Source of the DNA: a bacterium
Lineage (GTDB): Bacteria; BMS3Abin14
DNA: 50,394 bases
Assembly: GCA_029210965.1 (NCBI GenBank)
Contig: JARGFZ010000018.1
Location: 1-50,394 of the forward strand
Direction of reading: 5' to 3'
In this document: piece by piece, positions 24,315 to 27,604 of the stretch
Layout: the number at the start of each line of letters is the position of its first letter
Numbering within the stretch: position 1 is the first letter of the stretch
Made by a program: the position numbers and the translations under genes
Notes under the pieces: generated by a model
Told to the model about the DNA's origin: nothing
Databases searched by the model: none
Seen by the model: the letters and a program-made list of their open reading frames with translations, nothing else

Positions 24315-26342
24315 ATGACGATGGAAGAGATTGAAGAAACGGAAGAGAATAGTCTCAATAGCGATGGGACGCCTGTGGTGGTAGACGATGACACCATGAC
24401 AGACAGCGGAGATGCCGGTGAGGAATTCGGTGAGGAACTGGATGACGATGACGATGACAGTGAGGATTTCGCCAAGATGTACGAAGCGAGTATCCGAGAT
24501 CTGAGAGAGAGGGAGGTTGTCACCGGTACGGTAGTCGGAATCTCAAAGGATGGTGTTCTGGTGGACGTGGGCTACAAGTCCGAAGGCATTATTCCGAGGG
24601 TGCAGTTCCAGGATGAAAATGGAGAACTCACCATAGAAGAAGGCGATACCGTTGAGGTGTTCCTTGAGAAAAAGGAAGACTCAGAAGGTCTGATCTATCT
24701 GTCCAAAGAGAAGGCAGACAAGATGAAGGTCTGGAACGACATCGGCCAGTCCTACGAGGACAATGAGCCTATTCGGGGTAAGATCATCAGTCGGATAAAG
24801 GGTGGTCTCACAGTGGATATCGGCGTGAGGGCCTTCCTGCCCGGTTCTCAGGTTGACATCAGGCCGATCAGAAACCTTGATCGTCTCGTTGGTGAAGATT
24901 TCTTTTTCAAAATAATTAAATTTAACCCCAGACGAGGGAATGTTGTACTTTCCCGGCGTGTTCTGCTTGAGGAGGAGAGGGAAACCAAGAAGGAAGATAC
25001 CCTCAAGGTACTCGAGGAAGGTTCGGTGATGGAAGGGATCGTTAAAAATATCACCGATTACGGCGCCTTTATTGATCTGGGTGGAATAGATGGTCTTTTG
25101 CATATCACAGATCTTTCCTGGGGAAGACTGCAGCATCCTTCGGAAATGTTGACAGTTGGTGACAGTATCCAGGTCAAGGTCCTGAAGTTTGACAAGGAGA
25201 AGGAACGTGTCTCCCTTGGAATGAAGCAGTTGTCCGAAGACCCATGGGAAGGTGTACCTGACAGGTACCCCCTCAACGGGAGGGTTAACGGCAAGGTTAT
25301 GAGCGTCACCGATTACGGCGCCTTCATAAAGCTTGAGGATGGTGTGGAAGGACTTGTTCACATCAGCGAAATGACCTGGAACCGCAAGATCAAGCACCCT
25401 TCCAAAATTGTTGAAGTTGGGGATTCGGTGGAAGCAGAAGTTCTTAGCATCGACAGGGAAAACAGACGTATCTCCCTGGGTATGAAGCAGATCGAACCCA
25501 ACCCCTGGGATATCGTTGCTGAGAACTATCCCATCGGCAGCGTTATCGAAGGAAAGGTCAGGACCCTCACCGACTTCGGCGCATTTATCGGGTTGGAGGA
25601 AGGCATTGACGGTCTTATCCATGTTAGCGATATGTCATGGACCCAGAAGATTAACCATCCCTCCGAGGTCATAAAAAAGGGTGATTCTGTCAAGGCAGTC
25701 GTCCTGAGTGTTGACAAGGGCAGGGAGCGCCTGTCACTGGGTTTGAAACAGCTGACCACAAACCCATGGGAAGAGCTTGCCGCCAAACATCCGGTCGGAA
25801 CAATAGTTACCGGGAAGGTTGTCAACCATGCTGATTTCGGCACTTTTGTTGAACTGATGGAAGGTGTTGAGGGGCTCATACACGTTTCCGAAATTGATGT
25901 ACGTGACGGTCAAAGCTCTGAGGATGCATACCCCTCCGGTACTGAGGTGACTGTCAAGATCCTGAACATCGATTCCGAGGAACGGAAAGTCAGTCTCAGC
26001 ATGAAAGCTGCCAAGGAAGGCGGCTCTTCTCCTGCTCCTTACAAGAGCTATCTGAACAATGACAGCGGTGGCGGGACCCTGGGAGACATTCTGGGAGCAT
26101 CCCTGGCAGCGGCCAAGAGCAGCGGGGAATCCCAGGAGCAGGAAACTGAGCCAGCGGTAGAGATCGAAGCTGTCCCTGAAGAAGTTGATGAATCTCCGGA
26201 GGAGGAGGTTGAGGCTTCCCTGGCGGAAGTCGAAGAAGATCTTCAGCCTGAAACGGAAGAGGATGTTGAAGCTTCCGCCCCTGAGACTGAGGAAGAAGAA
26301 ACCTCTGAGGAAACCGAACCAGAGGAAGAGAAAGCCGACTAA
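24315..26342 (+). CDS. rpsA: 30S ribosomal protein S1
   Basis: Binds mRNA on the small ribosomal subunit. AGGAGG lies about 11 nt before the ATG. Six S1 (OB-fold) repeats can be followed at about residues 60-130, 145-215, 230-300, 315-388, 402-475 and 489-560. The last four show the classic pattern, for example ITDYGAFIDLGGIDGLLHIT with RVSLGMKQL. It is longer than the 557-residue E. coli protein (675) because of an acidic N-terminal extension (about 1-55, with runs of Asp) and an acidic Glu/Pro/Ala tail (about 595-675). Order ispH-rpsA-sppA-ihfB is typical. It is followed by a long palindrome and two terminator hairpins. Confidence 0.95.
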   Translation: MTMEEIEETEENSLNSDGTPVVVDDDTMTDSGDAGEEFGEELDDDDDDSEDFAKMYEASIRDLREREVVTGTVVGISKDGVLVDVGYKSEGIIPRVQFQDENGELTIEEGDTVEVFLEKKEDSEGLIYLSKEKADKMKVWNDIGQSYEDNEPIRGKIISRIKGGLTVDIGVRAFLPGSQVDIRPIRNLDRLVGEDFFFKIIKFNPRRGNVVLSRRVLLEEERETKKEDTLKVLEEGSVMEGIVKNITDYGAFIDLGGIDGLLHITDLSWGRLQHPSEMLTVGDSIQVKVLKFDKEKERVSLGMKQLSEDPWEGVPDRYPLNGRVNGKVMSVTDYGAFIKLEDGVEGLVHISEMTWNRKIKHPSKIVEVGDSVEAEVLSIDRENRRISLGMKQIEPNPWDIVAENYPIGSVIEGKVRTLTDFGAFIGLEEGIDGLIHVSDMSWTQKINHPSEVIKKGDSVKAVVLSVDKGRERLSLGLKQLTTNPWEELAAKHPVGTIVTGKVVNHADFGTFVELMEGVEGLIHVSEIDVRDGQSSEDAYPSGTEVTVKILNIDSEERKVSLSMKAAKEGGSSPAPYKSYLNNDSGGGTLGDILGASLAAAKSSGESQEQETEPAVEIEAVPEEVDESPEEEVEASLAEVEEDLQPETEEDVEASAPETEEEETSEETEPEEEKAD

Positions 26343-26520
26343 CCCGCATTTCTCACAAGGGTTCGTCGCGAGGCGGTGTAGACGGGTGTGGATACAAGGC
26401 GCGCGATCGAGGGCCCCGGAGGCGTAGTTGACACTACGTCGAGGAGTCCGACCGAGCGCAACGCAGTAGACATGCCCGTATCCGCCGCCGCAGTAGAAGG
26501 CTGGTGAGAAGTGCGGGCTA
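26342..26520. repeat. Imperfect palindrome of about 180 bp after rpsA
   Basis: The two halves are diverged reverse complements with arms of about 88 bp. The outer ends are CCCGCATTTCTCAC and GTGAGAAGTGCGGG; the inner parts are GGCGTAGT and ACTACGTC around a central TGAC. Mismatches are spread along the arms. It starts at the rpsA stop codon. It encodes nothing recognisable. Confidence 0.8.
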
Positions 26521-26541
26521 TTACCGGCAACGGTAATTTTT
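26521..26541 (+). terminator. Terminator hairpin 1 after rpsA
   Basis: TTACCG, GCAA tetraloop, CGGTAA, then a T run. Confidence 0.6.
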
Positions 26542-26552
26542 GTTTGATTATA

Positions 26553-26590
26553 GCCGTGTGTATTCTCGATGAGATGCCACGGCCTTTTTT
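26553..26590 (+). terminator. Terminator hairpin 2 after rpsA
   Basis: GCCGTG (26553-26558) pairs with CACGGC (26578-26583), with an inner TCTC-GAT-GAGA stem, followed by six T. Confidence 0.7.
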
Positions 26591-26618
26591 GTGATAGATT
26601 AAAGAGAAAATAGAAAGT

Positions 26619-26707
26619 GGATAGGGGATAAGGGATAAGGGACAAGGGCGGAAAGCCAGCCCGGAAGCTCGAAACTCAAAAGCGCAAACCTCAAACCTCA
26701 AACTTTG
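26619..26707. repeat. Heptad arrays GGATAAG and AACCTCA before sppA
   Basis: ggatagg, ggataag, ggataag, ggacaag (26619-26646), then aactcaa, aagcgca, aacctca, aacctca, aactttg (26673-26707). The second run ends 9 bp before the sppA ATG, leaving no room for a normal ribosome binding site. Confidence 0.75.
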
Positions 26708-26716
26708 GTTAAGCTT

Positions 26717-27604
26717 ATGAAACGTGGATATAAAATATTTATAATCATCACTTTGGTTCTGCTCGTGGTGGCTTTTGCCGTCGGACGATCAGACAGATAT
26801 GGCCCCGGAGGTTTTGGCGGGGATACCATTGCCCTGCTGCGTGTTGAGGGTCCTATAGTCGATGTTAGATGGCATATGGACCAGGTCCGTGATCTTATGG
26901 AAGATGACAGGATCAAAGGTGTTGTGCTTCGAATAGACAGCCCTGGAGGTGCAGTCGCCCCCACCCAGGAACTTTACATGGAACTGCTTAAGTTACGAAA
27001 GATCAAACCGATCGTGACTTCAATGGGAACTGTGGCAGCTTCAGGTGGATATTATGTCAGCTGCGCCACTGACTGGATCGTTTCCAACCCTGGTACCATC
27101 ACCGGAAGCATCGGTGTCATTATGGAGTTCAGCAATCTGGAGGGCTTGTTCGGGAAACTGGGCATCAGCAGCCGAACCATCAAAAGTGGAAAGTTCAAGG
27201 ATACTGGCAATCCAATGCGTCAAATGACTGAAGAAGAGGAAAAACTGCTTCAGGCTATGATAATGGATACATACGAACAGTTCGTCGAAGCGGTGCTCGA
27301 GGGGCGGCCAGTGGAAGAGGACCTGGTGCGTCCTTACCTTGATGGCAGGGTCTTTACTGGCCGGCAAGCGCATGAACTGGGTCTCGTGGACCAATTGGGT
27401 AACATAAATGACGCCATTGAAAAGGTATCTGAAATGGCAGGGTTGAAGGAAGTACCTGATGAAATTTACGAACCAGAACGGGAACGCCCTGGGATTTTTT
27501 CGATCTTGTTCGGTGAATCGGCCGCCAGAGCCCTGGCCAGCCTGTCTGATTCTGTAAATGATCAAAGCAGCGACAGGTGGCTGCAGCTGTGGAGAGCGTT
27601 TTAA
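26717..27604 (+). CDS. sppA: Signal peptide peptidase SppA, short form
   Basis: Membrane-anchored serine protease (S49) that degrades cleaved signal peptides. One N-terminal helix (YKIFIIITLVLLVVAFAVG) is followed by a periplasmic protease domain. The catalytic Ser109 is in GTVAASGGYYVSCA and the general-base Lys159 in TIKSGKFKDTGNP, 50 residues apart, as in the Bacillus-type single-domain enzyme. VVLRIDSPGGAV and PGTITGSIGVI are further hallmarks. ATG 26717 is preferred to TTG 26705 because it precedes the membrane helix directly. Neither has a clear ribosome binding site; repeat units fill that place. At 295 residues it is normal for the short form. Confidence 0.93.
   Translation: MKRGYKIFIIITLVLLVVAFAVGRSDRYGPGGFGGDTIALLRVEGPIVDVRWHMDQVRDLMEDDRIKGVVLRIDSPGGAVAPTQELYMELLKLRKIKPIVTSMGTVAASGGYYVSCATDWIVSNPGTITGSIGVIMEFSNLEGLFGKLGISSRTIKSGKFKDTGNPMRQMTEEEEKLLQAMIMDTYEQFVEAVLEGRPVEEDLVRPYLDGRVFTGRQAHELGLVDQLGNINDAIEKVSEMAGLKEVPDEIYEPERERPGIFSILFGESAARALASLSDSVNDQSSDRWLQLWRAF

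Follow-up and report, generated by a model that had tools for sequence, protein, structure and literature searches.

The window analyzed here (the whole stretch of 50,394 nucleotides of a bacterial contig, JARGFZ010000018.1) carries a long palindrome between rpsA and sppA that begins right at the stop codon of rpsA. What is such a palindrome, why does it start at a stop codon, and is its pairing maintained? A preliminary description placed it at 26342–26520. The palindrome is indeed there, but its exact limits are 26343–26517 (175 bp), and 26342 is the last nucleotide of the TAA that ends rpsA; as described, the left edge falls at this stop codon (CTAA at 26339–26342). The features of the region are the following.

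24315–26342, plus strand: rpsA, 30S ribosomal protein S1 type, 675 amino acids (Pfam S1 domains, E 2e-94)
26339–26342, plus strand: left target duplication CTAA, i.e., the last C of a GAC codon and the stop TAA (CTAA on both sides in the sister species)
26343–26517, plus strand: very probable non-autonomous IS1380-type palindromic element (MITE), 175 bp (fold, repeat copies, alignment, covariance model)
26343–26356, plus strand: left terminal inverted repeat CCCGCATTTCTCAC (the same 14 bp at both ends of L290 and L291)
26361–26502, plus strand: hairpin core found by model R2 (E 2.2e-14, whole genome)
26421–26440, plus strand: central stem–loop GGCGTAG..CTACGTC, the best conserved inner motif
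26504–26517, minus strand: right terminal inverted repeat CCCGCACTTCTCAC, in minus-strand reading
26518–26521, plus strand: right target duplication, which reads CTAT here and CTAA in the sister species
26520–26545, plus strand: first terminator-like hairpin with T-run, outside the element (terminator scan)
26553–26591, plus strand: second terminator-like hairpin with T-run, native (by eye; counterparts in element-free relatives)
26705–27604, plus strand: sppA-like signal peptide peptidase, the downstream neighbor (Peptidase_S49, E 3e-47)

Between these limits, the arms pair over nearly their full length and the palindrome is real. The minimum free energy predicted for the RNA is −94.5 kcal/mol versus −67.0 ± 3.8 for 200 dinucleotide shuffles, none of which is as low (z −7.3); on the opposite strand, the fold is at z −4.9. 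An ungapped repeat finder applied to the window did not report the 175-bp palindrome because the arms are imperfect. The element matches a covariance model with 162 bits (the window copy is among the 16 elements that built the model). According to the ORF list of the window, there is no ORF of at least 60 amino acids inside the 175 bp, so that the element is without a transposase gene of its own. The two terminator hairpins described behind the palindrome are also present: the first (26520–26537 with its T-run) passes the terminator scan, with 0.8 such sites expected in shuffles; the second (GCCGTG..CACGGC with a T-run, 26553–26591) is unreported by the scan, is recognized by eye, and has by-eye counterparts in relatives without the palindrome. 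Further on, before sppA (26618–26715), there are low-complexity direct repeats of GGGATAAGGGATAAGGGACAAGGG and CAAACCTCAAACCTCAAAC, with repeats of GAAATTTGAAATTTG instead in the sister species (genome G001; the window genome is G000).

Copies of the palindrome terminate in CCCGCAYTTCTCAC and its complement and are flanked by 4-bp YTAR duplications. At rpsA, the flanks are CTAA/CTAA in the sister species and CTAA/CTAT in the window, where the right end (CCCGCACTTCTCAC) is one transition away from CCCGCATTTCTCAC. Elsewhere, CTAG/CTAG (L003, L004, L017, L019) and TTAA/TTAA (L021) occur, as do unequal flanks (L010, L013, L015). A larger collection of 152 elements has YTAR at 230 of its 304 ends, with equal 4-mers outside both ends in 57 elements and unequal ones in 95. 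Among 23 equal or complementary pairs of non-palindromic flanks, direct repeats outnumber inverted ones by 20 to 3 (p 0.0005), as expected of a target duplication but not of a longer palindrome. A target of the IS630/TA type, guessed from the TAR..YTA ends, was dropped on the same count of directly duplicated non-palindromic 4-mers. The end sequence GCCCGCATTTCTCAC does not occur in any of 5.39 million open papers searched and, among 293 papers matched by two short inner motifs and the end as strings, the 12 that were listed look unrelated.

The 14-bp CCCGCATTTCTCAC is found, identical, at both ends of the IS1380-family elements L290 (plasmid pKF715A of P. putida) and L291 (Stutzerimonas), which are complete, 1655 bp long, and have CCCGCATTTCTCACAG preceded by a CTAG duplication. 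L294 (Bradyrhizobium) and L292 (Rhizobium) have one such end each, with a few base changes in the other. The ends of L199, also a complete IS, match at 12 of 14 bases. IS1380A (L293) stands further off, with ends CGCGGAAATCTCAC and CGCGGATTTCTCAC and a TCGA duplication. The transposases match PF13701 (E 1.4e-153 for L290, 3.1e-157 for L199). In a Sedimenticola genome (G070; loci L203 and L221), an identical end lies 95 bp ahead of an IS1380 transposase start, and the same end lies behind a transposase end in L168; a transposase start next to these ends gives matches in 3 of 114 genomes, of the class of G070. Beyond the ends, the interior of the element has no evident likeness to IS1380 (by impression only). 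We did not find an intact IS1380 with these ends in G000 or G001, both fragmented assemblies: the first has transposase pieces only, without matching ends, and the second no PF13701 match. Single TIR-like sites (in G000, G001, G006, and G046) were considered as remains of autonomous elements and set aside, since they have no partner end in the stretches scanned; at L055, which has one TIR-like site and for which ORFs were listed, no transposase was recognized. A classic deletion-derived MITE is seen at L086:5825–6181, where a 357-bp internally deleted IS1380 stands between ends of the same type.

From the comparison of sequences, the palindrome is very probably a non-autonomous MITE of IS1380 type, moved in trans by a DDE transposase of that family, that sits on the stop codon of rpsA. 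From the identical ends and the duplications, we infer that such a transposase would carry out the transposition. It would recognize CCCGCAYTTCTCAC at both ends, insert the element into a 4-bp YTAR site, and duplicate the site. At rpsA, the target would be CTAA, the last coding base with the stop codon (the TAA at 26340–26342 belongs to the target site), so that the duplication would regenerate the stop and leave the protein and the native terminators intact; the rpsA reading frame and the terminators are indeed intact. The start of the palindrome at a stop codon would follow because YTAR contains TAA or TAG and is duplicated. The interior is a long imperfect hairpin. Its core makes up a structured family in its own right, with pairing retained across phyla, and the window element is one carrier of it. 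After insertion, the rpsA copy seems to drift like its surroundings, and it is presumably transcribed as a hairpin in the 3′ untranslated region of rpsA. A striking palindrome at a ribosomal gene can in this way be explained without special pleading, and the duplication of a stop-containing YTAR target would be a general trick by which an element lands on a gene end and leaves the protein unharmed.

The preliminary description had offered two possibilities, a mobile palindromic element or a protection of the 3′ end of the rpsA mRNA. The first is borne out by dispersed copies, by the 4-bp target duplication, by empty sites in relatives, and by ends identical to those of the IS1380 family. DNA matches occur in 5 of 61 genomes: 2 in the window genome, 15 in the sister species, 3 in G006, 10 in G046, and 1 in G054, with 11 near-full-length copies that align at a mean column identity of 98%. 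The second copy in the window genome (contig C15, 25435–25608) has 96% identity. The sequence is thus neither single copy nor, as set out below, without conserved pairing across phyla, and a chance or decayed palindrome without history has a negligible probability, given that the element recurs, has structure, and is recognized by a model built from other elements. In G001, the C15 copy corresponds to a rearranged remnant (contig C148, L060:401–480) in which the left end runs into part of the right arm in inverted orientation, as a strand switch within the hairpin might produce. The element gave no blastn match among plasmids, and viral contigs have 10 single end-matches, one of them with a second, weaker end 2.9 kb off.

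The same insertion, at the same base behind rpsA, is present in G000 and in its sister species and, most simply, predates the split of these two species of the genus. Twelve genomes of the family were compared at rpsA; one ends inside rpsA (G007) and two have only weak S1 matches (G004, G011). Of the nine that can be assessed, seven have an rpsA spacer without the element, by eye and by model R1 (G002, G003, G005, G006, G008, G009, and G010). The idea that the hairpin protects the rpsA mRNA thus loses its ground, since the spacer lacks it in most of the assessable family genomes and other copies lie beside other genes. A host hairpin, regulatory or protective and kept by selection at rpsA, would fit its great stability, its position directly behind the stop of a gene that is presumably expressed at a high level, and its retention in two species. 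It would also fit a report (PMC12306157) that translation in E. coli is lowered by REPs lying no more than 15 nt from stop codons. Against those seven empty spacers, the presence of the same sequence elsewhere in the genomes, and the absence of compensatory changes among copies, it is quite unlikely. The rate of change at the locus also speaks against it: when G000 is compared with G001, there are 7 differences over the 175 positions of the element at rpsA, 9 (one of them a gap) over the 90 columns that follow, and 4 over the final 110 columns of the gene itself.

Landing on stop codons is not restricted to rpsA. Outside the family of the window, which is excluded from this count, the TAR of the YTAR is an in-frame stop (of an ORF of at least 100 amino acids) at 37 of 200 element ends. 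Among control sites from these loci, which are also YTAR because the end pattern requires TAR beside the end, the figure is 181 of 7807. Limited to positions outside genes, the figures are 37 of 166 ends versus 181 of 2475 comparable sites. The odds ratio is 3.6 (p 6e-7) relative to sites more than 100 nt behind a gene and 0.85 (p 0.7) relative to sites 1–15 nt behind one. Tolerance at gene 3′ ends therefore suffices and, with sites 1–15 nt behind stops equally enriched, an insertion preference specific for stop codons is unsupported; the stop codon is one frequent landing place among the tolerated gene 3′ ends. Ends that are not YTAR or lie less than 700 bases from a locus edge are dropped from these counts. 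Two sets of loci give 202 YTAR ends when treated separately and 200 when made jointly non-redundant (the sets overlap in one organism) and ends without a flanking gene are dropped; genes, here and for the core positions given below, come from a simple ORF caller.

The mismatches scattered between the arms had been taken as a sign that the palindrome is old but still paired, and hence maintained. For the rpsA copy, this does not hold: the mismatches are common to the copies and therefore part of the source element, not decay, and no compensatory double change is found among the 11 copies. The 49 unpaired positions carry only 10 substitutions in these 11 copies, and the private substitutions fall on paired sites in 34 of 44 cases (72% expected, p 0.5). 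Of those 34, 16 break a pair and 14 give a wobble pair; if one particular transition bias is assumed, 64% and 31% would be expected. The shortage of pair breaks is small. The claim of maintenance stands at the level of the family, across phyla. An HMM of the f1 interior matches elements of Fermentibacteria (3e-19), UBA2219 (5e-17), and a deltaproteobacterium (5e-11). In a cross-lineage alignment of 16 elements, 92.2% of 806 cells are paired, versus 76.9% after shuffling and 33%–45% with slid partners; changes on both sides occur in 31 of 51 pairs, and 130 cells are changed on both sides versus 45 in shuffles. Between the covarying helices, TTCGT.GCGAG and CAGTAGA, largely unpaired, are nearly constant. 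The hairpin has changed in a compensatory fashion across phyla, and single copies are without clear maintenance.

A mutational process (template switching or conversion from arm to arm) could keep such pairing without selection for a folded RNA or DNA. The lack of compensatory change within the 11 near-identical copies of the family agrees with it, as does the inverted right-arm piece of the C148 copy, which shows that arm exchange happens. The subfamily to which the window copy belongs also has nearly as many A.C as G.T mismatches over its 11 copies (38 and 40). But arm conversion would erase mismatches, and between helices that covary, the same internal loops persist from phylum to phylum. 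In addition, counted per element in one strand sense, G.T mismatches exceed A.C in 11 elements versus 3 of set A5 (2 ties) and in 16 versus 4 of set A7 (1 tie; for A7, the strand was set by an RNA model favoring G.U). In total, and with a count blind to G.T, there are 83 G.T versus 36 A.C mismatches in A5 and 82 versus 62 in A7. The pair counts lean on the choice of elements, since R1 served to find the A7 members and those of A5 were picked for their ends and a similar interior; the shuffle and slide controls remain. The excess of G.T leans, without proof, toward a folded RNA, and the mutational process is a possible but rather doubtful alternative.

Two covariance models were used, R1 from cross-lineage elements and R2 from core-only elements alone. 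The inner ~124 nt of the element occur also without IS1380 ends: R1 finds such core-only elements in G000, G002, G009, and G054, matching from about positions 28–31 to 148–152, and in G000 14 of its 18 rows are core-only; the remaining four come from the two palindromes, each matched on both strands. Beside the core, in 58 core-only loci, we did not observe paired IS1380-type ends (three strings with two mismatches occur, unpaired). In 21 aligned core-only elements, 96.5% of 734 cells are paired, versus 77.1% shuffled and 34%–47% slid. Applied to 30 loci with IS1380-type elements from elsewhere, R2 matches 9 at E ≤ 0.01, 8 of them at ≤1e-5 (Phycisphaerae, Holophagae twice, Thermoanaerobaculales, Fermentibacteria, a deltaproteobacterium, and G046 twice); the ninth, in Myxococcales, is weak (E 0.0024). 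R2 has no match in five Acanthopleuribacter loci, UBA2219 (L127), the other myxobacterial loci, or seven gammaproteobacterial loci, the interiors of which are therefore diverged or different; R1 does match the Acanthopleuribacter, UBA2219, and myxobacterial elements. Over 61 genomes and with stricter filters, R2 matches all 12 of the window's family (between 1 and 33 rows each, counting IS1380-type copies) as well as 5 of the other 49. The distant G054 has 41 R2 matches, with other outer arms, and lacks the end pattern even with two mismatches allowed. Rfam gives nothing at gathering score for 25900–27000 of the window (two weak matches lie outside the element) and, for 10 loci (9 with core hairpins), only two tRNAs at curated score, with a pan motif below it and elsewhere.

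Forty-five core-only elements were inspected in G000, G001, G002, and G009 (30 loci from 70 R2 rows, and 15 of the 18 R1 rows of G002 and G009). In 18, the right end is within 40 nt of a start codon in the same sense; in 15, it is equally close to where an opposing gene ends. The left end is within 40 nt of a gene in 1 (9 of the 45 are called inside an ORF by the simple ORF caller). Genes behind the core reach NCBIfam cut-offs for selB (in two genera), a NifU-type gene, panC, rimO, transketolase, purB, and argG and, below the cut-off, are etfB-like and tRNA nucleotidyltransferase-like. Cores before the starts of selB, argG, transketolase, and tRNA nucleotidyltransferase-like genes are seen at L345, L316, L297, L323, L335, L304, L346, L320, and L330. 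Orthologous inheritance of the leader copies was considered and set aside: where a gene carries a core in more than one genome, these cores are usually not each other's closest relatives (exceptions are gene X and, partly, tkt), and common descent at those genes is therefore unsupported. Head-to-tail arrays of cores with ~140-bp spacing occur in G001 (C553:2695–3236, also C125, C554, and C629), and in G007 a core-only hairpin lies upstream of rpsA (L039:1082–1205, contig C286), the spacer behind rpsA not being visible there.

Tentatively, then, the core might be a portable structured RNA or single-stranded DNA with two forms, one borne by IS1380-type ends between phyla and dropped at YTAR sites, often at stops, the other a leader RNA in fixed orientation a few bases before the starts of housekeeping genes in the window's family. 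In this same tentative reading, selB, argG, tkt, panC, purB, rimO, the etfB-like gene, the NifU-type gene, and the tRNA nucleotidyltransferase-like gene would be the candidate leader genes; the hairpin would be transcribed and might have a regulatory role. The element is of a known kind but with an unusual interior, a conserved hairpin family with two life styles, common to mobile elements and candidate leader regions across phyla and without an Rfam match here. Should the core act as RNA, bacterial MITEs would be linked directly to the origin of regulatory RNAs.

Among known systems, the IS1380 family (PF13701, with the pKF715A element) shares with the element the 14-bp ends CCCGCATTTCTCAC and the 4-bp CTAG/TTAG duplication. 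The element differs in being without a transposase gene, 175 bp versus about 1.65 kb, palindromic over its full length, and without evident likeness to the IS inside. Bacterial MITEs (Correia/NEMIS, RUP, ERIC, MITEAba12; PMC10969869 and PMC2229807) are likewise small and non-coding, with TIRs, target duplications, and many intergenic copies, but the hairpin core of the element is common to several phyla and exists also without IS ends. The main text of PMC10969869 does not contain the word IS1380. The same review gives the Chunjie MITE of Geobacter uraniireducens as 178–235 bp long, with dozens of mostly intergenic copies, so that by description, not by sequence, its size, copy number, and placing are like those of the element. 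In PMC10813416 and PMC12732532, IS1380 transposases serve as an outgroup for piggyBac, which targets TTAA (PMC7351741); piggyBac is eukaryotic and uses only the TTAA version of YTAR, whereas the element uses YTAR.

REPs are far shorter than 175 bp. A palindrome of REP/REPIN type, spread by a RAYT (a Y1 HUH transposase) and not by a DDE transposase, would also be intergenic and near gene ends, and Y1_Tnp genes are present in 7 of 10 genomes examined; but R2 finds no core hairpin within 14 Y1_Tnp loci, on which this identity was rejected, and the 4-bp target duplications and IS1380 ends make it highly improbable. REP/BIME palindromes lie, as here, close behind stop codons, with a possible effect on translation (PMC12306157). 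The element differs from them in its length, its IS1380 ends, its target duplication, and the absence of a RAYT nearby.

The IS1380-type ends occur in distant lineages. With one mismatch allowed, the end pattern occurs in 14 of 14 genomes, which were chosen for having a match, so that this is not a frequency; the sites per genome (forward plus reverse) range from 10 + 7 (G074) to 297 + 280 (Acanthopleuribacter pedis, G061), and the reversed control pattern has none in 13 genomes and one in G073. Among the matches listed (at least 120 stretches) are, according to record titles, Gammaproteobacteria, Acidobacteria, Planctomycetota, Myxococcales, Deltaproteobacteria, Fermentibacteria, Verrucomicrobia, the cyanobacteria Calothrix and Nostoc, and others. 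Cultured carriers exist, such as A. pedis, so that a role as RNA is testable. In that species (regions L226–L284), 577 ends occur in 10.8 Mb and, among 62 elements read, there are ten minimal palindromes of 58 bp and, by eye, some elements with short internal tandem units.
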